DNA of 64,000 nt from a virus: the IMG/VR virus record IMGVR_UViG_3300032307_000622, positions 52,303-116,302 of that record, one strand, 5' to 3'. The notes beneath the pieces are model-generated. The model was given only the letters and a program-made list of their open reading frames with translations, did no database searches and was not told the origin of the DNA. Each line of letters opens with the position of its first letter. Position 1 is the first letter of the stretch. The position numbers and the translations under genes were made by a program. This document shows, piece by piece, positions 3,998 to 52,046 of this stretch.

Positions 3998-4015
3998 TGG
4001 TATAATTATTGGATG
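3998..4015 (+). promoter_or_regulatory. Extended -10 promoter, leaderless start (TGGTATAAT-N6-ATG)
   Basis: TGGTATAAT at 3998-4006 is followed by exactly six bases and the ATG at 4013. A start site seven bases after the -10 would be the A of the start codon. No ribosome-binding site is present. Confidence 0.65.
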
Positions 4016-4516
4016 GCAACTGGACAATCGGACGCATATGATCTACCCTATCCATTAGCAGAGGATAATGTTAATGTTCATGGGGATATTAAGCAGCTAG
4101 TAGAAAAACTTGAGGCTGTCTTGCCCCTAGCATCATATTCACAGGTAAATGTGTTAAATAATAGTGGACAAGTAATTAATGCTGGAGATCCAGTATATGT
4201 TACTGGATATACCACTGCTACAACGGTAGCTAAAGCTACACAAAGTACAACGGCACCAATCTTAGGATTGGCAAAAAGTTCAATCGTTAACAATGCTAAT
4301 GGAATTGTTGTAGTGTCTGGAATCATTCAAAATATTAATACATCTGCATTTGCTGCTGGAGATATTTTGCATGCAGGAACAAACGGCGGACTGACTAACG
4401 CAGAATTGCCTGGCGGAGCAGTAGCCGTTGTTGTTTATGCAGCTGAAAATGGAATAGTCTCTGTTGACTCAAAAGGTAATGGAACATGGGGGGCACTAAA
4501 AGCTGGACTAGCTTAA
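4013..4516 (+). CDS. Virion surface/decoration-type protein
   Basis: The start at 4013 (MATGQSD) is preferred over a TTG at 3950, because the upstream codons overlap promoter sequence and a leaderless promoter ends at this ATG. The product has ~167 residues. From ~45 on it shows a repeated beta pattern (NNSGQVINAGDPVYVTG, AKSSIVNNANGIVVVSG, NTSAFAAGDILHAG) that is common in phage capsid-decoration and fibre proteins, where 'G-x-V/I-x-x-G-x-P/I-V-Y' strands pack into small barrels. It opens the plus-strand fibre module. Structural role inferred from this pattern and location. Confidence 0.65.
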   Translation: MATGQSDAYDLPYPLAEDNVNVHGDIKQLVEKLEAVLPLASYSQVNVLNNSGQVINAGDPVYVTGYTTATTVAKATQSTTAPILGLAKSSIVNNANGIVVVSGIIQNINTSAFAAGDILHAGTNGGLTNAELPGGAVAVVVYAAENGIVSVDSKGNGTWGALKAGLA

Positions 4517-4519
4517 TAG

Positions 4520-4537
4520 TGATATAATGATAAAATG
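4520..4537 (+). promoter_or_regulatory. Extended -10 promoter, leaderless start (TGATATAAT-N6-ATG)
   Basis: TGATATAAT at 4520-4528 precedes the ATG at 4535 by six bases, as upstream of 4013 and 5175. There is no ribosome-binding site between them. Confidence 0.65.
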
Positions 4538-4927
4538 GTAAGAACAGCTGCTTATAATGTAGGGAACACTCCTCCAAGAGTTACTTGGACAGTTGTTCGT
4601 GGCGATACCGCATCATTTAGGGCATACGTAACAGATGACTTCAAAGTAGCCTTAAATATCCCAGACTGGACAATTTCCATGAAGATCAAGCGTCCAAATC
4701 TTGCCATCAATGCTGGAAAGATTACGGATGATGCAACCCTTGTTTTAATTCTATCACCAGAACCCATTGATGGCGATGGGGCTGGAGAGTTTACAGTTTC
4801 TTTAACAGCAGAAGAGTCTAATGTTCTTCAAACTGGGGATATTTTTGACATCCAGCTATCTGATGCTACAAGAGTTTGGACAGTTGCTCAGGGCAGCATG
4901 ATAATTCTTGAAGATGTGACAGACTAA
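4535..4927 (+). CDS. Baseplate/fibre N-terminal domain protein (BppU-like)
   Basis: 130 residues. It resembles the N-terminal domain of phage baseplate upper proteins: V-V-R-G-D-T-A-S-F near 20-28, IPDWTISMKIKRP near 43-55, then alternating beta strands ending V-W-T-V-A-Q-G. Such domains attach fibres to the baseplate. It starts with no ribosome-binding site, directly after an extended -10, and its stop overlaps the next start (TAATG). Assignment rests on strand pattern rather than clear motifs. Confidence 0.6.
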   Translation: MVRTAAYNVGNTPPRVTWTVVRGDTASFRAYVTDDFKVALNIPDWTISMKIKRPNLAINAGKITDDATLVLILSPEPIDGDGAGEFTVSLTAEESNVLQTGDIFDIQLSDATRVWTVAQGSMIILEDVTD

Positions 4928-5151
4928 TGGCCTTTGTAAAGATTTCGGAACGCAACTATTCTTCTAAAATAAAAAAGCATTTTAGCTATGGCATTTTTAG
5001 AATTGGCAAAACTTCTAGAAAAGTAGAGATAAAAGAGGTTCTTCCTTTTAGGATTAAGTTTACAAATACCAACATTAGAAGCAACTATGGACCAGGTAAT
5101 GCTGCCCCAATCGGAATAGCAATTATTGGCCTAAACAATTACGTAATGTAA
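4927..5151 (+). CDS. Small basic hypothetical protein
   Basis: 74 residues, Lys/Arg-rich in the first half (ISERNYSSKIKKHFSYG), ending in a short hydrophobic stretch (PIGIAIIGLNNYVM). Its ATG overlaps the stop of the preceding gene, so it is likely translated by coupling. I recognise no family. Its place between two structural proteins suggests a minor fibre or baseplate component. Confidence 0.6.
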   Translation: MAFVKISERNYSSKIKKHFSYGIFRIGKTSRKVEIKEVLPFRIKFTNTNIRSNYGPGNAAPIGIAIIGLNNYVM

Positions 5152-5159
5152 ATAAACAA

Positions 5160-5177
5160 TGATATAATTTAATCATG
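5160..5177 (+). promoter_or_regulatory. Extended -10 promoter, leaderless start (TGATATAAT-N6-ATG)
   Basis: TGATATAAT at 5160-5168 with six bases to the ATG at 5175. It is the third copy of the same arrangement within 1.2 kb. Confidence 0.65.
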
Positions 5178-5621
5178 TCTAGAACAACCCTATCTTATGT
5201 AAAGACCAGATTTGAGACTGGTGACCGTCCAGAGCAGCAAGACTACGTTGACCTAATTGATACAGTGTCAGCCCAGTCAACTGACCTTGGTACTTTTGGA
5301 AATAACGAAAACACAATCAATGAAATCGAAAACGTAACAGTTCTTGATAGCTTTGATGCGACTGTTTGGAGAATGGTTAAGTACCTGATTTCTATTTCTA
5401 AAACCACAAACGGAGATAATAAGTTCTACGCAACAGAATTGACCATACTAGTTGACGGTAACAACGTTAATGTTAGCGAATATGGAACGATAGACAACGA
5501 TGGGAATATGGGAACCATAAGCGTCTCTAGAGCTGGAGATACAGTGGCAATTACACTAACTCCAGATTCAGTAATCAAGCCAGTAACTGTACGTTATGCA
5601 CGTATGGGACTTAAGGCATAG
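5175..5621 (+). CDS. Fibre-associated protein sharing the C-terminal domain of the large fibre
   Basis: 148 residues. The first ~55 residues (GDRPEQQDYVDLID...) resemble a short adaptor. The rest (~58-148) matches the last ~85 residues of the neighbouring 967-residue fibre: A-T-E-L-T-I-L-V against A-E-F-L-V-K-V, a shared (V/I)-x-E-Y-G-(T/I) with G-x-M, and a final V-x-V-x-x-x-L-x-A. This looks like an exchangeable C-terminal beta domain. It is translated from a leaderless-type start. Function in adsorption is inferred. Confidence 0.65.
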   Translation: MSRTTLSYVKTRFETGDRPEQQDYVDLIDTVSAQSTDLGTFGNNENTINEIENVTVLDSFDATVWRMVKYLISISKTTNGDNKFYATELTILVDGNNVNVSEYGTIDNDGNMGTISVSRAGDTVAITLTPDSVIKPVTVRYARMGLKA

Positions 5622-9093: not shown

Positions 9094-10665
9094 ATGGCAA
9101 CAAGAATGCAACAGCGACGAGGCACTGAGGCTCAGTGGACCTCTGCAGACCCAATCCTGGCTTCTGGAGAAATTGGTTTTGAGTCCGATACTGGTCAGTT
9201 TAAGATTGGTGATGGTATCAATCACTGGTCAGACCTATCCTACTTCAAGGATCTTAGCGATCTTGGTGGAACCCTAGATGATTATGTTCCACTAACTCAA
9301 AAAGGTTCAGACAATGGAGTTGCCACACTAGATGGCAATGGGTATGTTCCAGTTGACCAGCTTGGCAATGTTATTGGAGATGCTCCACAAATCTTGGATA
9401 CACTAGGAGAAATTGCTAGTGCTGTTAATGATGCAAATGGAATTGTGTCAAGCAAAATTGAAATTGCCATTGGAGAAGAAGCTACCGCTAGGGACACTGC
9501 AATAGACACTGCAGTTCAGACTCTAACTGGACTTATTAATGATGAAGAAAATGCTAGAATAGATGCAATTCACGACGAAGCTGATGCAAGAGCAGAGGCA
9601 ATCTCTAGTGCAATCGGAACCCACTCTAGCGACACTACAAACGTTCACGGTATCGCAGACACATCTTTGCTTGTTACAACAACAACTGCACAGGGCTATG
9701 TTTCCACTCACAATTCTGAGACTGAAAACGTGCACGGCATTGCAAGTACCGCAGACCTAGTAACAAAGTCTGCAACTCAATCTCTATCAAACAAGACCAT
9801 TAACACCGCAGACAATGACATCACAGTTGTAGCTGCAGACATTAGCGATGTTACTGCCTCTGCTGCAGAGCTTAATGTTCTTGACGGAATCACCGCCTCA
9901 ACTACAGAACTAAACTATGTAGACGGAGTGACATCTGCCATCCAGACTCAGCTAAATGCCAAGGCACCCATAGCTGACCCAACATTTACAGGAACTACCA
10001 CTACAGCAAATCTTTCTATTACTGGAAACCTTACTGTTGGCGGAACAACCACAACTGTTAATGCAACAGACTTGAGCATATCAGACCCACTAATTTACAT
10101 GTCTAGCGGAGCCTGGACAACAGATATCGTAGACGTAGGATTCCTTGCTGCTACAGGTGAAGTTGGAGGAACTGAGCAAGACCACAAGCACTCTGGATTG
10201 TTCCGTGACGTAAGTGATAACAAGAAATGGAAGCTTGTTTCGAATGTTCCACACCCAGTATCAAATACTGTAGACCTGACAAACGCTGCATACGACACCC
10301 TCAGATTGGGTGCGGTTGAGTTCTCTGATGGTGTACAGGTTAAGCAGGGTGTTCCATCCCTTACTGAAATTAACCAGAAGACATCTGCTTACACAACTGT
10401 TCTAACAGACCGTGATAAGCTTGTAGAGATTAATTCATCTTCTGGTGTAACTGTTACAATTCCTACAAACTCATCTGTGGCCTATCCAGTCGGAACATCA
10501 TTTGATATTCTGCAAACTGGAACTGGGCAGGTAACAATTGCTGGTGCAGGTGGCGTAACTGTAAATGCAACACCTGGACTAAAGCTACGTACTCAGTGGT
10601 CATCTGCCACCCTATTTAAGAGGGCAGAAAACACCTGGGTTGTCTTTGGAGACCTTTCAGCATAA
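9094..10665 (+). CDS. Tail fibre with tropism-determinant-like N-terminus
   Basis: 523 residues. The N-terminus (QQRRGTEAQWTSADPILASGE... then T-G-x-F-K-I-G-D-G) is the motif seen at the start of many phage receptor-binding proteins, as in the Bordetella phage major tropism determinant. Downstream are two (T)NVHGIA repeats, AELNVLDGITAS / TELNYVDGVTS repeats, a P-T-F-T-G-T turn, and a domain with VGFLAATG...HKHSGLFRDVSD. The C-terminal tip matches the partial protein at bases 1-149. Role in host recognition inferred. Confidence 0.85.
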   Translation: MATRMQQRRGTEAQWTSADPILASGEIGFESDTGQFKIGDGINHWSDLSYFKDLSDLGGTLDDYVPLTQKGSDNGVATLDGNGYVPVDQLGNVIGDAPQILDTLGEIASAVNDANGIVSSKIEIAIGEEATARDTAIDTAVQTLTGLINDEENARIDAIHDEADARAEAISSAIGTHSSDTTNVHGIADTSLLVTTTTAQGYVSTHNSETENVHGIASTADLVTKSATQSLSNKTINTADNDITVVAADISDVTASAAELNVLDGITASTTELNYVDGVTSAIQTQLNAKAPIADPTFTGTTTTANLSITGNLTVGGTTTTVNATDLSISDPLIYMSSGAWTTDIVDVGFLAATGEVGGTEQDHKHSGLFRDVSDNKKWKLVSNVPHPVSNTVDLTNAAYDTLRLGAVEFSDGVQVKQGVPSLTEINQKTSAYTTVLTDRDKLVEINSSSGVTVTIPTNSSVAYPVGTSFDILQTGTGQVTIAGAGGVTVNATPGLKLRTQWSSATLFKRAENTWVVFGDLSA

Positions 10666-13532: not shown

Positions 13533-16500
13533 ATGTCTAGTCCATCTAACCTCTATGCAGAAAAGATTTTTAGTGAGCATCCACTGGCACTTTGGGCTTT
13601 AGACGATGTGGTTGACTATAAGTCATTAATTACAGAATCTGACAGGAACATTTCTCTTTGGCCAGACATTTCTGGCGGAACAGCACAGACAGTATCTGTA
13701 GTTGACGAGCCATTTCCAAATAGCGTTACAACAGAAATTACTGGAAGTTTAACAGAAAACAGTTTTGCAGAAATAGAGTGCATTAGCCCCATAACAATTG
13801 GTGACGATGGGGTTCTCTTTTCTAGCCTAGATAGTGATTTGGGCACTTTCACAATAGGGTCATATTTTTATACAGACTCTGCCTATTTATCTAAGGTTGA
13901 AATTGGATATGAGTACTATGATACTGTATCTGGTAGCAACGTCCAAAGAACAAAATCATTTAATACTTCTGTTTCAGGCAGATGGTTCTTTGTTGCAGAA
14001 ACGTTCGATATCCCAAGCGACAACTCTAGCCTAAGACTTGTTATAAAAATTGAGTATTCTGGTGGTGCAGAATCAACAAACGACTATAAGTTCTTAATCA
14101 ATGGATTATCTCTTGGCCAATGGTCAGAAAACTTTAGCTCAACATCCCTTGGCTCTCAGATAATTGACATTCCTAGCAATATTTTAATTTCTGGAAAAGC
14201 AATTGAGGCAAAGTCATATGGGCTTCAGGAAACCCCAGGGTACTATCTAATAAAGTCATCTGGGTCAATCTCCTGTAAAAATGGTGGCCTGCCAATGGTT
14301 TATGGGGCATCAAATACAACAATCTTGTCTCCAAATGAAAATAAGCCATCGCTAATTGTTCCAGGCAATGGGTTCTTAAATGATTATGGAAAGTATAAGG
14401 ACTATACTGTTGAGTTTTGGATAAAGGTTTTGAATGACTCTTTAGAGCAAAAAAGAATCTTTGGTCCAATCTCTTCAAGTGACGGACTGTACGTAAAAGG
14501 CCCCTTTATTATTTTAAAAATTGGAAATTCTTATGGATCGTATTTTGTTGGTGAATGGTTTAGGCCAATGCTCATTAATATTAAATATGGCCCAACTTCA
14601 GCAGCATTGTTGATTAATGGAGAGGTTGTTATATCCTTATCTTTGTCAGAATCAGACATTAATTTTCCAGCAAAAATTAACAATCAAAAAGATCAGGACT
14701 GGCTAGGATTTTACTCTTATGAGGATGTTCCCACAATAGAGTTGGATTGTGTGGCTATCTATCCATACCAAGTATCACAAATACTTTCAAAAAGAAGGTG
14801 GGTCTACGGCCAGGGAGTTGAGTTCCCAGAAAATATTAATGCTGCTTATAGCGGAACTTCCGTATTTATTGATTCAACATTTGCAAAGCATTCAAATACA
14901 TACTCGTACCCTGATCTAGGAAAATGGGATCAGGGGGTTGTTGATAATCTTGTTACCGAAAATGGAATTCTTTCTGTTCCAAGCTATCAGCTACCCACTA
15001 TAGCTTTTAACAATAAAAACAGAGAGACCTGGATTAGAGACATTTCATTAGTACAAAATGAAGAAAAGAACTTTATGTGTCTAAGGCCAAACTCATCTTG
15101 GACAAATACAAATGGTTATTTTCTTATTGAAAATCTTGGATTTTTAGATAAAGACGTAAAGGGATTTTATGGAGTTTTTAAACAAAAATCTAAAAATCTT
15201 AACAAGGAAATTCTTTTTGAAATAGAAGATGTAGGCACGTCAAACTACTTACAAATATCTATTGATGATAGCCAAATAGTTTATACCATGTCTTATGGGT
15301 CGCAGTTGTCAACCATCTATACTTCAGAAATTAGATATGTTGGTGAAGAGTTTTCAATTGGTCTAGACTTCAGGGCATTCTCTGAATATTTTGGTGGCAA
15401 CACTGCAGCATTTTTTGGCAAAAAATCATCACTAAGGCTATATGTTGGTGGTAACAAAAAGTTTGAAAATAGCTTTAGTGGCAACATATACTCTATTGGA
15501 GTTTGTACGGAAAGAAACTTTTCTAAGATTTCACAATTTTTTAACACAAAAGGCTTGACACTTGACTATGTAGATATGTTTGGCGTTGACGGAGGAATCC
15601 CAATAACAGAATATTGGGAGACTCTTTATGACGGCAAGATTCCAACAACTACAACTTGGGATCTACACGTTAATCCAGACAGCAACTATCCTGCACCATC
15701 CATAGTGGCAACCCAATCCTTCGCTGACTTTATTGCAAGCTACACAGTTAAACTATTTGAGAATTTTGATAAATTCAACATAGGTGTTTCTGTAGATTCA
15801 TATTGGGAAGATTACATACCGCTAACCTATATGGCAAAGTATGTTACTGATCCAAATGGTGACTCCAGATATGATCTTGATTTTATTCAATTTAATGTTA
15901 ACTATCCAGCACCATCTAAATTTGTTCAGGAAGATGAGTCTAGTTCTTGGACATATGAGGAACTTAGAGAAAAGTTCTACTCTCCAGTTCAAAGAACCTA
16001 TGAATCATTAGATAATCAACTATTTACTGGATATGAAAATTATAACGATTTAAAAAATAAATCATTCAAAACTTATAAATACGATACCTTCGGAGCACAG
16101 GTCAGAACCTTTATAACATTCCAGTATTTGGCTTCAGGAGCAAATGCACCCTATAGCTATTTTACAAATACAATAAGGCCAGATAAGGACGGTACTCTCG
16201 TGCCTGGGTCATACGTTATAGGCTATGACGAAGATAGCAACCCAATCTATGACAGCTTTGAAAATACGATGTACGAGGTTGTTGACAATATGGTTATCTA
16301 TCCTCCAAAACATATAGACTTTAACGAACTAGCAATCGTTACACATATGGACATTGTCGTTGATGATATTGTTAGTCATCCAGTTCGAATAAGAAAGTTG
16401 CAATATGCGTCTCAGGCACTAAATGATTCAGTGCCAACAATGATTGGTACAAAGTTTGGTACAGAAATTTACCCATACAGAAAAACTGGCGTGTATTTTG

Positions 16501-17302: not shown

Positions 17303-17318
17303 TGGTATACTAATGGTT
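17303..17318 (+). promoter_or_regulatory. Extended -10 promoter TGGTATACT
   Basis: TGGTATACT at 17303-17311 lies seven bases before the ATG at 17319. A second TATAAT at 17296-17301 overlaps the previous stop codon. Either could start the head-gene transcript with almost no leader. Confidence 0.5.
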
Positions 17319-17696
17319 ATGAATTCTGAAAAAGAACAATTTCCTGGTCAAGTTGGTGACTCTAAGGTAACAATTTTAGATAAGCAGTATGACTGGGGTA
17401 TCTATTTCTGGAAGAAGGCTAACGGCAAGCCTTTTACAGATGGTCATGGAAACGTATTAAACATACCGTCCCATAGGGGTGACGCACTTCAGATTCATAA
17501 ATTGGTTCAGGAAGCTACGGCTCTTGGACAAGGGGATGGCTCATATGAGTTTATGCCAGGCGTGTCAAGAGTGTCTGATGAAGAGTATAGCGAACAGGTT
17601 GATAGGATGAAGCAGGGTCTGATTCCAAACCTGAATGACATAGGAGCAGTCATGGCAGCAAAAGAAACATTCGACAAGTATGGAAGTGACGATTAA
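17319..17696 (+). CDS. Hypothetical protein upstream of portal
   Basis: About 125 residues. ATG 17319 is preferred over ATG 17313 because the extended -10 ends at 17311. The sequence contains YDWGIYFWKKANGKPFTDGHGN and a charged C-terminal helix. Its stop overlaps the portal start (TAATG). No family recognised. The position immediately before the portal suggests a packaging or head-assembly role. Confidence 0.6.
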   Translation: MNSEKEQFPGQVGDSKVTILDKQYDWGIYFWKKANGKPFTDGHGNVLNIPSHRGDALQIHKLVQEATALGQGDGSYEFMPGVSRVSDEEYSEQVDRMKQGLIPNLNDIGAVMAAKETFDKYGSDD

Positions 17697-19372: not shown

Positions 19373-19378
19373 TATAAT
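19373..19378 (+). promoter_or_regulatory. Candidate -10 before protease gene
   Basis: TATAAT lies 9 bases before the ATG at 19388, immediately after AAAGGAGG (19365-19372). If the site is a promoter, the Shine-Dalgarno-like GGAGG would lie outside the transcript. If not, GGAGG with a 15-base spacing serves an upstream transcript. Unresolved. Confidence 0.35.
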
Positions 19379-19387
19379 TAAACTACC

Positions 19388-20740
19388 ATGACTATAGCAA
19401 AGGCACAGTGGAATTCTGAGGGCGATCTCGTTCGCCTATCCATGCCATTCTCTAAAGTAGATAAAGAGCGTAGAATCGTCTCTGGATTTGCCACACTTGA
19501 CAATGTGGACAGACAAAAGGATATTGTCACATCTGAAGCTTCTTTGAAGGCCTTCTCAAAATTCCGTGGCAACATTAGAGAAATGCACCAACCACTAGCT
19601 GTTGGTAAAATGGTAGCTTTTAAAGAAGACAAGTACTTTGACCCAGAGTCAAAAAAGTTTTATTCTGGAGTATATGTTTCTGCATATGTTTCAAAGGGTG
19701 CTCAGGATACCTGGGAAAAGGTTCTAGATGGTACCCTGTCTGGTTTTTCTATTGGTGGAAAAATGAATAAGTGGGATGACGCTTATGACGAAAAGATGGA
19801 CTCTACTATTCGAATTATTAAGGAATACGATCTAGTGGAACTATCACTAGTAGACACTCCAGCAAATCAGTTTGCAAATATTTTATCTGTTGAGAAAGTT
19901 GACGGTGTAGATGTGATAAAGGGTGATGGAGTAAATACAGAAATTGAAAATGTTTTCTGGGATCCAGAATCTCAAATTGTTATGCTATCTGAAAAAGAAG
20001 TTGAAATGAGTCCCACTTCTGGAGCCCCAATGCAGAATATAGGTTTCGTTGAGAAAAACGATAACGAAAAAACAGAAATGGTAAAATTCTTAGTTGATAG
20101 TGCTAAAGGCATTAATACAATTGAGATTAAGAAGGAGGCAAGTCCTATGACTGAAGAAAATACTACTGCAGCTGAAGATGCTGCGGTTGAAAAGTCACAA
20201 GAGGTCGCTCCAGAGGCAGAGGCCGTTGCTGAGGATGTTGTAAAGACAGACGAAGCTGAGGTTGCCAAGACAGATGACATGGATGAAGATGACAAAGAGG
20301 AAGAGTCCGAAGATGAAGACATGGACAAGTCCGCAAAGAAGTCTAAGGACATGGAAGAAGACAAGTCATATGATGACAAGAAGTCTGAAACTGTTGATGC
20401 AGCTGAAGAGGTATCTAAGTCAGACGATGCACTTGAAACTGCAGTTGCAGATATCAAGTCAACCGTTACCAAAGCCTTTAGCGATCTAACAGCAGTTGTT
20501 CAAGCTCAGGCTGAGCAGATTGCTGAACTACACAAATCTCTAGCTACAGTAAAGAATGAGGTAACTGCAAGCAAGGATGTGTTTAATGAGTTTGGAAAGA
20601 GGGTTGATGCTGTTGAGGCTGACACCGCTTTCCGTAAGTCTGGTGATCTAGGCGAGATCATTCAGGAAACTCAACCAGAACAGGTTGAGAAATCCCTATG
20701 GGGCGGTCGTTTCCTCAAAACTGCCGATTTATTTAGATAA
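19388..20740 (+). CDS. Prohead protease fused to scaffold domain
   Basis: 450 residues. Residues ~1-175 are an HK97-type prohead protease: RIVSGFATLDNVDRQ, R-E-M-H-Q-P with the catalytic His near 65, and L-S-G-F-S-I-G-G with the catalytic Ser near 119. The rest is very acidic (runs of Glu/Asp around 295-330) and ends in a coiled coil (LTAVVQAQAEQIAELHKSL region), as in scaffolding proteins. It should direct capsid assembly and then cleave scaffold and capsid. A separate internal start for the scaffold half is annotated below. Confidence 0.85.
   Translation: MTIAKAQWNSEGDLVRLSMPFSKVDKERRIVSGFATLDNVDRQKDIVTSEASLKAFSKFRGNIREMHQPLAVGKMVAFKEDKYFDPESKKFYSGVYVSAYVSKGAQDTWEKVLDGTLSGFSIGGKMNKWDDAYDEKMDSTIRIIKEYDLVELSLVDTPANQFANILSVEKVDGVDVIKGDGVNTEIENVFWDPESQIVMLSEKEVEMSPTSGAPMQNIGFVEKNDNEKTEMVKFLVDSAKGINTIEIKKEASPMTEENTTAAEDAAVEKSQEVAPEAEAVAEDVVKTDEAEVAKTDDMDEDDKEEESEDEDMDKSAKKSKDMEEDKSYDDKKSETVDAAEEVSKSDDALETAVADIKSTVTKAFSDLTAVVQAQAEQIAELHKSLATVKNEVTASKDVFNEFGKRVDAVEADTAFRKSGDLGEIIQETQPEQVEKSLWGGRFLKTADLFR
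20147..20740 (+). CDS. Nested in-frame scaffold protein (internal start)
   Basis: Inside the protease gene, AAGGAGG at 20132-20138 is followed by 8 bases and an in-frame ATG at 20147. This is a better ribosome-binding site than that of the full-length gene. Translation from here gives 197 residues (MTEENTTAAEDAA...), exactly the acidic plus coiled-coil half without the protease. Phage lambda uses the same logic (Nu3 within C). Separate production would supply scaffold in excess over protease. Confidence 0.65.
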   Translation: MTEENTTAAEDAAVEKSQEVAPEAEAVAEDVVKTDEAEVAKTDDMDEDDKEEESEDEDMDKSAKKSKDMEEDKSYDDKKSETVDAAEEVSKSDDALETAVADIKSTVTKAFSDLTAVVQAQAEQIAELHKSLATVKNEVTASKDVFNEFGKRVDAVEADTAFRKSGDLGEIIQETQPEQVEKSLWGGRFLKTADLFR

Positions 20741-25874: not shown

Positions 25875-25890
25875 ACTATAATTTAATAGC

Positions 25891-25923
25891 AAGGCCGTTT
25901 AGCTTTATAGCTAAGCGGCTTTT
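25891..25923 (+). terminator. Rho-independent terminator after tail tube gene
   Basis: GCCGTTTAGC (25894-25903) pairs with GCTAAGCGGC (25910-25919), with one G-U pair, around a TTTATA loop; AAG/TTT extend the stem, and TTTT follows. The next promoter starts 6 bases downstream. Confidence 0.85.
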
Positions 25924-25928
25924 GCATT

Positions 25929-25946
25929 TGGTATACTTATTGGATG
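25929..25946 (+). promoter_or_regulatory. Extended -10 promoter, leaderless start (TGGTATACT-N6-ATG)
   Basis: TGGTATACT at 25929-25937 with six bases to the ATG at 25944 and no ribosome-binding site. It directly follows the tail tube terminator. Confidence 0.65.
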
Positions 25947-26627
25947 CCAACAAAGATATACGACTCAGATACCGTCAGCCTAATAGACGGAACTGAGATA
26001 TACGTGACTCCACTTAAGATCAAGTATCTAAAGGAGTTTATGATTAAGTTTGAAGAGGTCAGAAAGGCAACAAACGATGACCAGGCAATAGACAGCTTGG
26101 TTCAGTGCGTTAAGATTGCCATGAAACAATACTGCCCTAGAATAAAGACTATAGAAGATGTGGAAGATTCAATAGATCTTGCCACAATGTATAAAATAAT
26201 AGATGTTGCAGCTGGCATATCTCTAAAAGAGAATTCTGAAAAGCCTATCAAAGATCAGGCAAATGAGGGAGGAAGCTGGGACGAGCTAGATCTTGCAAAA
26301 CTAGAATCTGAAGTATTTTTGCTGGGTATCTGGAAAGACTATGAAGAACTAGAAACATCTCTTTCTATGCCTGAACTAGTTGCAACACTATCCTCAAAAC
26401 GAGAGCTAGACTATCAAAGCAAAAAATTCTTGGCTGCAATCCAGGGCATAGACCTAGATGAGCAATCTGGTAAAAAGGATGCTTGGCAAGAAATGAAGGC
26501 TAGAGTCTTCAGTAGAGGAAAAGCAAAAGATGCAAATGATATAACAGCACTACAAGGCCCAAATGCTCAAAAGGCTGGATTCGGAATTGGCCTAGGCATA
26601 GGCTATGAGGATTTGACTAAAAAATAA
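25944..26627 (+). CDS. Tail assembly chaperone, long form
   Basis: 227 residues. The first ~95 residues (LIDGTEIYVTPLKIKYLKEFM ... KIAMKQY ... AAGISL) are paralogous to the whole protein at 26681. The remaining part (WDELDLAKLESEVFLLGIWKDYEELETSL ... YQSKKFLAAIQGIDLDEQ) resembles the C-terminal extension that siphophages usually add by ribosomal frameshift (lambda G-T). Here the long form is a continuous gene. It lies between tail tube and tape measure, the standard chaperone slot. It should coat the tape measure during tail assembly. Confidence 0.75.
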   Translation: MPTKIYDSDTVSLIDGTEIYVTPLKIKYLKEFMIKFEEVRKATNDDQAIDSLVQCVKIAMKQYCPRIKTIEDVEDSIDLATMYKIIDVAAGISLKENSEKPIKDQANEGGSWDELDLAKLESEVFLLGIWKDYEELETSLSMPELVATLSSKRELDYQSKKFLAAIQGIDLDEQSGKKDAWQEMKARVFSRGKAKDANDITALQGPNAQKAGFGIGLGIGYEDLTKK

Positions 26628-41671: not shown

Positions 41672-41690
41672 TGATATAATATAAGTTATG
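41672..41690 (+). promoter_or_regulatory. Extended -10 promoter, leaderless start (TGATATAAT-N7-ATG)
   Basis: TGATATAAT at 41672-41680, partly overlapping the previous stop codon, with seven bases to the ATG at 41688. No ribosome-binding site. Confidence 0.6.
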
Positions 41691-42134
41691 GCTAAAATTC
41701 CACTTCCCCAAAGAGGGCAACCAGTAGATCTTACATATTTGTACGAAATTGCAAATGCTGTTAACAACCTATCAACACAAATATCTCCATCTTCGTATAA
41801 GTATGTCACAGTGGATACCCCTACTTCTGGAAAGCAAAATGTTAAGGCATCAGAGGCAAAAATTATTGGTGGGTATATTGAGGTAGCAAACAATAGTACT
41901 GTTTCAGCCTCTAACGAAAAAGAGTTTTCGTATGCCATAACTGGTGGAGAATTTAAGTATGCACCAATAGTTACCGCTACCCCAGTTATGATAGGAACTA
42001 CTGATGCTGGAAAAAGTGCTAGCATAATTTTAAAAAATGTAACAACCTCAAAGGTTGAGGGTGTAGTAAAGTTTAACGTTTCTGGTGATGCCAAGGTAGG
42101 AATTAATTTAATTATCATTGGCATTCCAAACTAA
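41688..42134 (+). CDS. Small fibre/baseplate protein
   Basis: 148 residues. The helical N-terminus (PVDLTYLYEIANAVNNLSTQI) resembles trimerising fibre starts; the rest is beta-rich (FSYAITGGEFKYAPIVTATPVMIG, GVVKFNVSGDAKVGINLIIIG). The final domain looks like a compact fibre head. Last structural gene before the replication module. Translated from a leaderless-type start. Confidence 0.6.
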   Translation: MAKIPLPQRGQPVDLTYLYEIANAVNNLSTQISPSSYKYVTVDTPTSGKQNVKASEAKIIGGYIEVANNSTVSASNEKEFSYAITGGEFKYAPIVTATPVMIGTTDAGKSASIILKNVTTSKVEGVVKFNVSGDAKVGINLIIIGIPN

Positions 42135-42144
42135 GGGAATCATC

Positions 42145-42690
42145 GTGCCCATTAATAAAAAAGGCAGCATTGAGCAAGAAGGGTACAACTCTGCACCAAT
42201 AATTCCTGGCAGCAAAAAAGTGTGGTTCTTAAATGGTGACCTTGTTAGAGTTCATCATCACAATAAATCAAATGGCATAATGTCTGTTTATAATATTATT
42301 CAAGATAGAATTGAAAGTTGTTTAATTAGTGATTTTAAGAAAAATCGTGAAAGAGCTTTTACTGTTGGAGAAACGGCAACTCTTGTAAATAGACACAAAA
42401 AGTATATGCCCAGCCTAATGAAGCGTGGTATTATTCCACATCCCACAGGATCGCAAAAGGGCGGATCAACAGGCTGGCAGGTAAGAAGTTATTATTCAGA
42501 GTCGCAAGTTAGAGAAATTCGTGATATACTTGCCTCATATCATATGGGTAGGCCAAGAGGAGACAGGCTTATTACCAATGACATCACTCCATCCAAACAA
42601 GAGTTGACAAGGCGTATGGGGGATGGTATACTAACGTATACAAGGACAGAAGACGGAAGATTTATTCCAATTTGGAGTGAATCAATATAG
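42145..42690 (+). CDS. MerR/excisionase-like DNA-binding regulator
   Basis: 181 residues from GTG 42145, with AAGGGA upstream; the longer frame from TTG 42118 overlaps the previous gene. The centre and C-terminus hold a helix-turn-helix of winged-helix (MerR) type: F-T-V-G-E-T-A-T-L-V-N-R-H, then L-M-K-R-G-I-I-P-H-P and a Y-Y-S-E-S-Q-V-R-E-I motif, as in 'Y-x-x-x-D/E-V-x-x-I' of MerR proteins. A likely transcription switch between structural and replication genes. The promoter for the next genes lies inside its 3' end. Confidence 0.6.
   Translation: MPINKKGSIEQEGYNSAPIIPGSKKVWFLNGDLVRVHHHNKSNGIMSVYNIIQDRIESCLISDFKKNRERAFTVGETATLVNRHKKYMPSLMKRGIIPHPTGSQKGGSTGWQVRSYYSESQVREIRDILASYHMGRPRGDRLITNDITPSKQELTRRMGDGILTYTRTEDGRFIPIWSESI
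42604..42639 (+). promoter_or_regulatory. Consensus promoter TTGACA-N17-TATACT
   Basis: A perfect -35 TTGACA (42604-42609), a 17-base spacer and TATACT (42627-42632) lie within the end of the regulator gene. The start is predicted near 42639, ~65 bases before the first replication-module gene. This is the best match to sigma70 consensus seen in the window and probably an early promoter. Confidence 0.75.
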
Positions 42691-44420: not shown

Positions 44421-44434
44421 TATAATAAAACATG
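44421..44434 (+). promoter_or_regulatory. Leaderless-type -10 (TATAAT-N5-ATG)
   Basis: TATAAT at 44421-44426 begins right after the helicase stop and lies 5 bases before the ATG at 44432. No extended TG and no clear -35, so weaker than the other leaderless sites. Confidence 0.45.
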
Positions 44435-44782
44435 TTTCAACAGAATGTTCACCACAAGCCAATAAAGAAATTCGGTCTTGACGGTGTTATTAATGATGAG
44501 TCAAATATTGCCAGGCTCAAAATTGAATATGTACGACTGCTATTGTTAGAGATGAGGCTGTCTGGATATGTCCCAAGATTGGATATTGACCCAGACTTTA
44601 CAATAAGGTATAATGAACAAAAGAATTACTTTGAATTTAAGTTATCAATACATGGTGTTTATATAGGGAAAAGAAGAATAGAATGCATAGTGGGGATAGA
44701 CGGAACAACGGTGGTGTCTACACAGCCGAACAGATTAACAGAGTTTTATCTGGGGCAGGCATCTCAATCGAATCTGAAGTAG
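44432..44782 (+). CDS. Hypothetical protein overlapping primase
   Basis: 116 residues. FGLDGVINDESNIARLKIEYVRLLLLEMRLSGYVPRLDIDPDFTIRY followed by FEFKLSIHGVYIGKRRIECIVGIDG. No ribosome-binding site. Its last 100 bases overlap the primase start in another frame. The N-terminal helix plus beta sheet resembles small proteins found beside primase in actinophages; I cannot name a family. Confidence 0.6.
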   Translation: MFQQNVHHKPIKKFGLDGVINDESNIARLKIEYVRLLLLEMRLSGYVPRLDIDPDFTIRYNEQKNYFEFKLSIHGVYIGKRRIECIVGIDGTTVVSTQPNRLTEFYLGQASQSNLK

Positions 44783-51141: not shown

Positions 51142-51403
51142 GCGAATTAACGCTAAGCAGCATAAAAACTCTGGACGTGGAACCCATAAGGGGGATGCGA
51201 CCTGGAAAAACTTTACTGTTGACTTTAAAGAGGTTCAGAAATCTTTTACTATCAATAAGGACGTTTGGGCCAAGGCAGTCACAGATGCTATTCGGAATGG
51301 AAATGATCCTGCGATCATGGTTGTCATTGGAAAAGATGGAGTTAAGACAAGGCTTGCGGTTATAGAAGCCTCGCTGCTTGAGCAAATTATTGATGGTGTA
51401 TAA
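51119..51403 (+). CDS. Putative small PD-(D/E)XK nuclease / resolvase-like protein
   Basis: 94 residues. The conserved core is H-K-N-S-G-R-G-T-H-K-G-D-A-T-W followed by F-T-V-D-F-K-E. The spaced D...D-x-K arrangement fits a minimal PD-(D/E)XK nuclease, and small proteins with N-S-G-R-x-x-x-K-G-D occur near recombination genes in phages, where some are called Holliday junction resolvases. C-terminal part has a beta strand (PAIMVVIG) and KTRLAVI. Active-site reading is mine and needs structure modelling. Its stop codon lies inside the next promoter. Confidence 0.45.
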   Translation: MSEKSESKRINAKQHKNSGRGTHKGDATWKNFTVDFKEVQKSFTINKDVWAKAVTDAIRNGNDPAIMVVIGKDGVKTRLAVIEASLLEQIIDGV

Positions 51404-51413
51404 TTAAGATATG
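51399..51413 (+). promoter_or_regulatory. Leaderless-type promoter overlapping a stop codon (TATAAT-N6-ATG)
   Basis: TATAAT at 51399-51404 contains the TAA stop of the previous gene, and the next ATG is six bases later. A partial -35 TTGAGC lies at 51378-51383 with a short 15-base spacer. No ribosome-binding site. Confidence 0.6.
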
Positions 51414-52046
51414 AAATACGCAGACTTAGTAGCATCTCAGCCATACGTAAGCAATCAGGACTTCAAGCCTTTGGTTGTTTCAGATGTATTATTGCCAGAA
51501 CAAATATCAGAAATTTACTCCGCAGTTTCTGCTTTACCAGAAAGCCAAACAAGAATTCAGCCCTGGGCTGGGCATAAAATTTGGGACACCAGGTTTTCAA
51601 AAGAGATTGAAGACAGGATAACTGCTGTTGCCCAATCTGTTTTGGGAGACATCGTGGTCTTAAATTATGACTATTCTTTTGCAAGATACTCTAGAAAGTT
51701 TGGCTATGAGTGTAAGCTATTCCCACACTACGATACTAGAGAAGCACAAAGAATAACCTTTGACATTCAACTAAAGGCATCTGAGCCCTGGGCGGTAGTT
51801 GTGGAAGGCGAGCCATTTTACCTAGAGGATAACCAAGGCTTAATTTTTGCAGGAACCCAGCAAATCCATTGGAGAGAAAATAAAACAATAGCTGAGGATG
51901 CAGAAATTGATATGATTTTTTGTCATCTAGAGTATGTCAACACATTGCCACTTGATGAGGGGCAGGAAGATATTCTGCGTGAAAGAGCAAGCTTTTTAAT
52001 GCATGAGTCTGGAATTGGAAATGAGGTAGTTACAAATGAAGTTTGA
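51411..52046 (+). CDS. 2OG/Fe(II) oxygenase-like protein, QxHWR family (cluster copy 1)
   Basis: 211 residues. H106-x-D108 (F-P-H-Y-D-T), then F-D-I-Q-L-x-x-x-E-P-W-x-V-V-V-E-G, and H153 in Q-Q-I-H-W-R-E. These match the protein at 2067 and the next two genes. All three metal ligands are present. The C-terminal tail is helical and acidic. Starts a three-gene cluster placed between recombination genes. Substrate unknown; protein, nucleotide or DNA are all possible. Confidence 0.7.
   Translation: MKYADLVASQPYVSNQDFKPLVVSDVLLPEQISEIYSAVSALPESQTRIQPWAGHKIWDTRFSKEIEDRITAVAQSVLGDIVVLNYDYSFARYSRKFGYECKLFPHYDTREAQRITFDIQLKASEPWAVVVEGEPFYLEDNQGLIFAGTQQIHWRENKTIAEDAEIDMIFCHLEYVNTLPLDEGQEDILRERASFLMHESGIGNEVVTNEV

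Follow-up and report, generated by a model that had tools for sequence, protein, structure and literature searches.

Leaderless genes of Actinobacteria, which reportedly make up more than 20% of all genes there, are recognised by a TANNNT motif some 12 bp ahead of their start (PMC3160421). In Mycobacterium tuberculosis, ATG and GTG are used at similar frequencies in leaderless and leadered genes, and TGN-extended promoters, only 7% of the total, are yet the strongest class (PMC3898074). In Cluster O mycobacteriophages such as Corndog, leaderless promoters have been predicted, of SigA-like type and with the +1 falling on the start codon; a divergent pair is among them (PMC4351075). Each element has been described before: leaderless genes in Actinobacteria, promoters of the extended -10 kind, and actinophage promoters that give no leader (PMC3160421, PMC3898074, PMC4351075). 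The Stanwilliamsviridae phages of Streptomyces (Tomas, Daubenski, LukeCage) resemble the phage studied here in head-tail gene order, and their portal proteins are 46-48% identical to its own. Messages of the Thermus phage P23-45 are reportedly leaderless. In P23-45, gp39 displaces sigma region 4, and the middle and late promoters are of the extended -10 type (Berdygulova 2011 and Tagami 2014, reviewed in PMC7403470).

We analysed a stretch of 64,000 nucleotides (hereafter the window), corresponding to bases 52303-116302 of a 116,302-base IMG/VR virus record; the remainder of the record was analysed as L001-L003. The promoter-start units found in it share the features common to the Actinobacteria leaderless genes: a box resembling a -10 element some 12 bp ahead of the start, no Shine-Dalgarno (SD) sequence and no -35 element (PMC3160421, PMC3898074). 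The wording differs, since the phage box is a near-perfect TATAAT or TATACT with TG in most families, whereas the probable host order has TAnnnT with TG in about 5%. Unlike the M. tuberculosis leaderless genes (PMC3898074), the phage units start almost exclusively with AUG (AUG:GUG 248:1). In Cluster O, few promoters per genome were predicted, by -35/-10 scoring (PMC4351075), whereas here there are many units with an extended -10 and no -35, which are kept throughout a large group and serve specific virion genes. The P23-45 middle and late promoters are alike in belonging to the extended -10 class and in being read by host polymerase; however, phage and host are unrelated, and gp39 is the known sigma-4-displacing factor there (PMC7403470), whereas a WhiB gene is the only candidate found here. 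In the Streptomyces relatives, TATAATN6ATG was found 11 times against 0 for the control, a smaller excess and at other genes. Orthologous promoters in Tomas were rejected because they are not at the same genes: the unit is absent from its major tail and protease genes. The relation to Stanwilliamsviridae is seen in portal and gene order; a low-stringency DNA search with 7 kb gave no long match.

The first-pass annotation had pointed to three genes, at 4013, 4535 and 5175, as preceded by TG(G/A)-TATAAT, exactly six nucleotides and ATG, without SD. Direct reading of the letters confirms this arrangement. The predicted features are listed below; homolog counts, here and throughout, take each distinct upstream sequence once and do not equate it with an independent lineage.

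3998..4015, + strand: extended -10 leaderless promoter and start, TGG-TATAAT-TATTGG-ATG (sequence and homologs)
4013..4516, + strand: gene 4013, 167 aa, head-fibre/decoration-like (AlphaFold and weak structure matches)
4520..4537, + strand: extended -10 leaderless promoter and start, TGA-TATAAT-GATAAA-ATG (43/43 distinct homologs)
4535..4927, + strand: gene 4535, 130 aa, phrog_1084, tail-tip/baseplate Ig-like (family match and predicted structure)
4927..5151, + strand: gene 4927, its start overlapping the gene 4535 stop (TAATG)
5160..5177, + strand: extended -10 leaderless promoter and start, TGA-TATAAT-TTAATC-ATG (45/45 distinct homologs, 42 with N6)
5175..5621, + strand: gene 5175, 148 aa, baseplate/tail-fibre connector-like (phrog_967, family match)

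Homologs of gene 4013 carry TATA(A/C)T 6-9 nt before the ATG in 32 of 33 distinct cases, and an SD in none. Its AlphaFold model (pLDDT 79) weakly matches the T1 capsid decoration protein 9kzj_H (E 5e-5) and the phi29 head fibre base 6qyy. The promoter at 4520 begins directly after the upstream stop codon, in an intergenic gap of 18 nt, and all 43 distinct homologs of gene 4535 have TATA(A/C)T 5-9 nt before the ATG. The gene 4535 product is predicted to be Ig-like (pLDDT 89). Its model matches the tail tip of T5 (7qg9_L, E 9e-7) as well as baseplates of DT57C, Douge and 80alpha; no relatives of the gene turned up when phage records were searched at the DNA and protein level. In relatives, gene 4927 has no promoter and little SD, and it is probably translationally coupled to gene 4535. 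The TAATG overlap thus indicates that leaderless genes can head small operons.

The motif is in clear excess over shuffled sequence. In the window, TGNTATAATN6ATG occurs 3 times against 0.09 expected and TATAATN6ATG 5 times against 1.13 expected; none of 100 shuffles reached 3 and 5, respectively. Over the whole 116-kb record, TATAATN6ATG occurs 13 times against 1 for the reversed-pattern control. At eleven of these sites the ATG begins an ORF of 40 aa or more, against 0.24 expected and a maximum of 2 in 100 first-order Markov simulations, and most spacings other than k=6 give about 1 such TATAAT-Nk-ATG in the genome. Shuffles, simulations, reversed pattern and other spacings thus reject a chance origin. 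A general trait of A+T-rich phages was likewise rejected: three cyanophages had no TGnTATAATN6ATG and no clear excess of TATAATN6ATG. One Limnohabitans phage had a single TGn site.

Relatives were gathered for gene 4535, the portal, 41688, 44432, 51411 and one left-arm gene; the start was located in each and the upstream sequence read. Twenty related phage genomes contain 128 TGnTATAATN6ATG (3-13 per phage of the group) against 1 for the reversed control. Genes fall into two clean classes, those with TATA(A/C)T 4-9 nt before the ATG, where an SD is nearly always missing, and those without the box. The box was found in 0 of 24-69 homologs each for 5639, 8561, 9094, the portal (17696), the major capsid gene (20755), 27030, 40011, 43199 and 45655, and these genes mostly have an SD. 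Among all homologs, a box 5-9 nt before the ATG is followed by no SD in 325 cases and by an SD in 2, whereas a box 10-34 nt away has an SD in between in 64 cases and none in 18. Some genes occur in both forms. Homologs of 41688 comprise 42 leaderless starts and 6 with an SD, those displayed having TATAAT further upstream. A second phrog_1084 gene, at L003:10170-10517 (G000 50170), is a distant paralog of gene 4535 (17% identity); it is leaderless in this genome and two relatives and has promoter plus SD in seven relatives.

The anatomy of the unit was examined in 58 mutually divergent N6 upstreams, in the choice of which TG played no part. T is present at -15 in 86% and G at -14 in 95%, and neither the 6-nt spacer nor the -35 region is conserved. 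With one representative for each of 58 rough gene families, TG stands at -15/-14 in 41 (p about 1e-37 against 6%), the clustering being coarse (40% identity, first 25 residues) and liable to split homologs. In the same families, matches to a -35 element equal those at random positions. The comparison shows that TG at -15/-14, TATA(A/C)T at -12 to -7 and AUG at +1 behave as one constrained unit.

Four more genes (25944, 41688, 44432 and 51411) had been annotated with a -10 box 5-7 nt before the ATG, and all four boxes are kept in relatives. The details needed small corrections: 25944 has TGG-TATACT-N6, spacing at 41688 is N7, and the TGn that precedes the hexamer in the extended -10 class is missing at 44432 and reduced at 51411 to a TG directly adjacent, with no n. 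Two further units, at 17319 (TGG-TATACT-N7) and at the protease gene 19388 (TATAAT-N9), had been overlooked.

17303..17321, + strand: predicted unit TGG-TATACT-N7-ATG (46/55 homologs)
17319..17696, + strand: small gene upstream of the portal, in the position of Tomas gp50 (synteny)
19373..19390, + strand: predicted near-leaderless unit TATAAT-N9-ATG before the capsid protease gene (44/53 homologs)
19388..20740, + strand: head maturation protease (phrog_9427, 4e-119)
25929..25946, + strand: predicted unit TGG-TATACT-N6-ATG (19/24 homologs with TATA(A/C)T at N6)
25944..26627, + strand: gene in the major-tail-protein position (synteny with Tomas gp60; phrog_10504)
41672..41690, + strand: predicted unit TGA-TATAAT-N7-ATG (42/48 homologs leaderless)
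41688..42134, + strand: gene 41688, 148 aa, no family match
44421..44434, + strand: predicted unit TATAAT-N5-ATG, no TGn, fused to the upstream stop TAG (32/32 homologs, k 5-7)
44432..44782, + strand: gene 44432, 116 aa, phrog_17515 (family match)
51399..51413, + strand: predicted unit TATAAT-N6-ATG, TG adjacent, no n (7/7 homologs)
51411..52046, + strand: gene 51411, 211 aa, weak phrog_2954 match

The ORF caller had placed the start of the small pre-portal gene at 17313, only 1 nt after the -10 box. Because this is too close, the true start is probably the ATG at 17319. Homologs of the protease gene that have the box mostly show k=9 or 8, and the 25944 homologs beyond the 19 of 24, where displayed, have TACAAT or TACACT, also at N6. 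Gaps holding promoter and start usually measure 7-23 nt, and the upstream stop codon often touches the promoter, as in TAGTGATATAATATAAGTTATG at 41688. Genome-wide, TGnTATA(A/C)T occurs 40 times, 13 times in the leaderless position and 11 times within 60 nt before an SD-led ORF, some of which may be chance.

Two divergent gene pairs, each with leaderless promoters on both strands, lie at L001:18930-19075 (G000 18978-/19021+) and L002:4970-5120 (G000 25019-/25069+). Their minus-strand promoters share an identical 15-mer, GCTACATGATATACT. A perfect TTGACA 17 bp from TGnTATA(A/C)T was seen only at window position 42624 and at G000 19954; by the criteria used, neither site is within 60 nt before a gene start, and both are possibly early or RNA promoters.

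The first-pass annotation also took the design to be that of virion genes. Many of the genes with the unit are virion genes, but an SD leads the portal, major capsid and tape-measure genes and several of the fibre genes. The unit also precedes two left-arm genes, one Stealth-like and one Asp/Asn-hydroxylase-like, and so is not restricted to virion genes. The leaderless design is selective and not the general expression mode of virion genes. Within the fibre region, a fibre-like gene at 9094-10665 of the window has an Mtd_N domain. Elsewhere in this region there are short DNA matches (77-89%) to records of cyanophages and of Streptomyces phages, which suggest exchange of fibre modules across host phyla.

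The comparative evidence strongly supports the proposal that these are leaderless-type extended -10 promoters. We read them as sigma-A-type, -35-independent extended -10 promoters giving leaderless mRNAs, with a probability of roughly 0.92. Host RNA polymerase would melt the near-consensus -10 and begin transcription at the A of the AUG, some 7 nt further on; where N is 7-9, it would start instead 1-3 nt before the AUG. Host ribosomes would then begin on the leaderless mRNA by recognising its 5' AUG, as with many host genes. Being near-perfect, TGnTATAAT probably lets these promoters act strongly with no activator. With a length of about 14-18 bp, a unit can sit in the gap that separates one gene's stop codon from the start of the next, so that a gene or mini-operon may be expressed on its own, with no SD leader. 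This would hold, for example, for 4013, 4535 with the coupled 4927, 5175, the pre-portal gene, the protease gene, the gene in the major-tail position, 41688, 44432 and 51411.

The spacing ranges from 5 to 9 across genes, with a mode of 6 (N8-9 in the protease gene, N7 at 17319, N6-9 in 4013 homologs). Since it is not always 6, a leader of 1-3 bases may precede the AUG in some mRNAs. It is possible, though we hold it to be somewhat unlikely, that the promoters are real but many starts fall 1-5 nt before the AUG, giving very short leaders rather than none. The start choice of RNA polymerase is usually flexible by 1-2 nt, which would allow this, as would the spacing of 7 at 17319 and 41688 and of 8-9 in the protease gene and most 4013 homologs. 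However, N6 is a sharp mode across families, and this spacing is also where the peak lies in the probable host order.

That host order comes from evidence independent of the promoters. Leaderless starts had been taken as pointing to the host class; alone they are no proof, but Actinobacteria are backed by the WhiB and portal genes. Of the 22 records searched for WhiB, 17 score above the cut-off, among them this genome, where the WhiB-like gene lies in the left arm (G000 14684-14857, L167). The portal is closest to those of the Streptomyces Stanwilliamsviridae, and is 77% identical to that of a contig binned with an Actinomycetota MAG. Thus this phage group of lakes most likely infects Actinobacteria, and we infer, from the one binned phage contig, a probable host order compatible with Nanopelagicales. 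In two genomes of this order (G026 and G035; about 1.4 Mb, 46-48% GC), TANNNT peaks 6-7 nt before starts, in 60/379 and 31/192 genes, against about 9 and 6 elsewhere. This peak indicates that the probable host makes leaderless mRNAs of the same geometry. Its -10 boxes are weak TAnnnT with a G/C-rich middle, and TG is present in 5/91. A consensus shared by host and phage was rejected, as 21 genomes of the order have no surplus of TATAATN6ATG. TGnTATAAT occurs 0-4 times per genome, below the reversed control, in G001 (excluding some contigs read as N), G023, G026, G030 and G035, which suggests that the probable host order avoids near-perfect extended -10 sites.

Because the -10 wording differs in the probable host, a phage-modified polymerase is conceivable. 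A dedicated hyper-consensus leaderless class could be combined with a phage factor, for instance a WhiB-like protein on sigma region 4, that redirects polymerase from -35-dependent host promoters to extended -10 promoters by analogy with P23-45 gp39. We consider this improbable. The wide presence of WhiB, in records where no sigma region-4 gene is over cut-off, would suit it, as would the units lacking a -35 and the near absence of TGnTATAAT from the probable host order; WhiB7 binds SigA region 4 (PMC3905903), and P23-45 extended -10 promoters are less affected by gp39 (PMC7403470). On the other hand, M. tuberculosis promoters show no conserved -35 motif anyway (PMC3898074), and a phage WhiB may act otherwise, the TM4 WhiB being described as a transcriptional inhibitor of WhiB2 (cited in PMC10202952). 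Late promoters driven by a phage sigma were rejected, no sigma region-4 gene (PF04545) being over the family cut-off in the 22 records, with one sub-threshold hit. If the WhiB proposal were true, a WhiB-steered switch would move transcription and SD-independent translation to phage genes in one step.

Evidence of a different kind comes from the sequence before 25944.

25889..25925, + strand: terminator-like hairpin abutting the 25944 promoter (folding and covariation)

The hairpin folds at -24.1 kcal/mol (z -5.3), and 6 of 7 consensus pairs have two-sided changes in 26 aligned sequences. In aligned relatives, its T tract runs into TGnTATACT. A simple terminator scan missed it, probably because the T run is interrupted; folding and covariation detected it. 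Since the hairpin abuts the promoter, the 25944 transcript could hardly start elsewhere. This weighs against TATAAT being no promoter at all, with translation of long upstream transcripts by coupling to the preceding stop at an A+T-rich start region. Gaps of mostly 7-23 nt, promoters that touch the upstream stop and the apparent coupling of 4927 would fit such a mechanism; however, the order TG-n-TATAAT and its fixed spacing persist despite differing upstream sequence, TG at -15/-14 plays no part in coupling, and SD-led neighbours lack the motif, so we regard it as very improbable. That the motif is kept merely by recent common descent of one cassette, parts of which are common to many relatives, is refuted by 58 rough families with unrelated N-termini, by the unconserved 6-nt spacer and by the homologs that gain an SD on losing the spacing, and is hardly credible.

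Sigma-A-type extended -10 promoters giving leaderless mRNAs thus remain our preferred reading. As far as our literature searching went, what appears new is that units combining a near-consensus extended -10 with a leaderless start serve virion genes selectively and across the whole group, in a wording that seems nearly missing from the probable host. Gene regulation is little studied in phages of uncultured freshwater Actinobacteria, and the units provide a testable cis-code, TGn-TATAAT or TATACT-N5-9-ATG. This code corrects start sites such as 17319, marks the heads of mini-operons and is a sequence hallmark for spotting actinophage contigs. The fused promoter-start, 15-18 bp long, could be a minimal expression part in Actinobacteria. 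Finally, homologous genes that shift between leaderless and SD-led starts offer a natural experiment on the switching of initiation mode.
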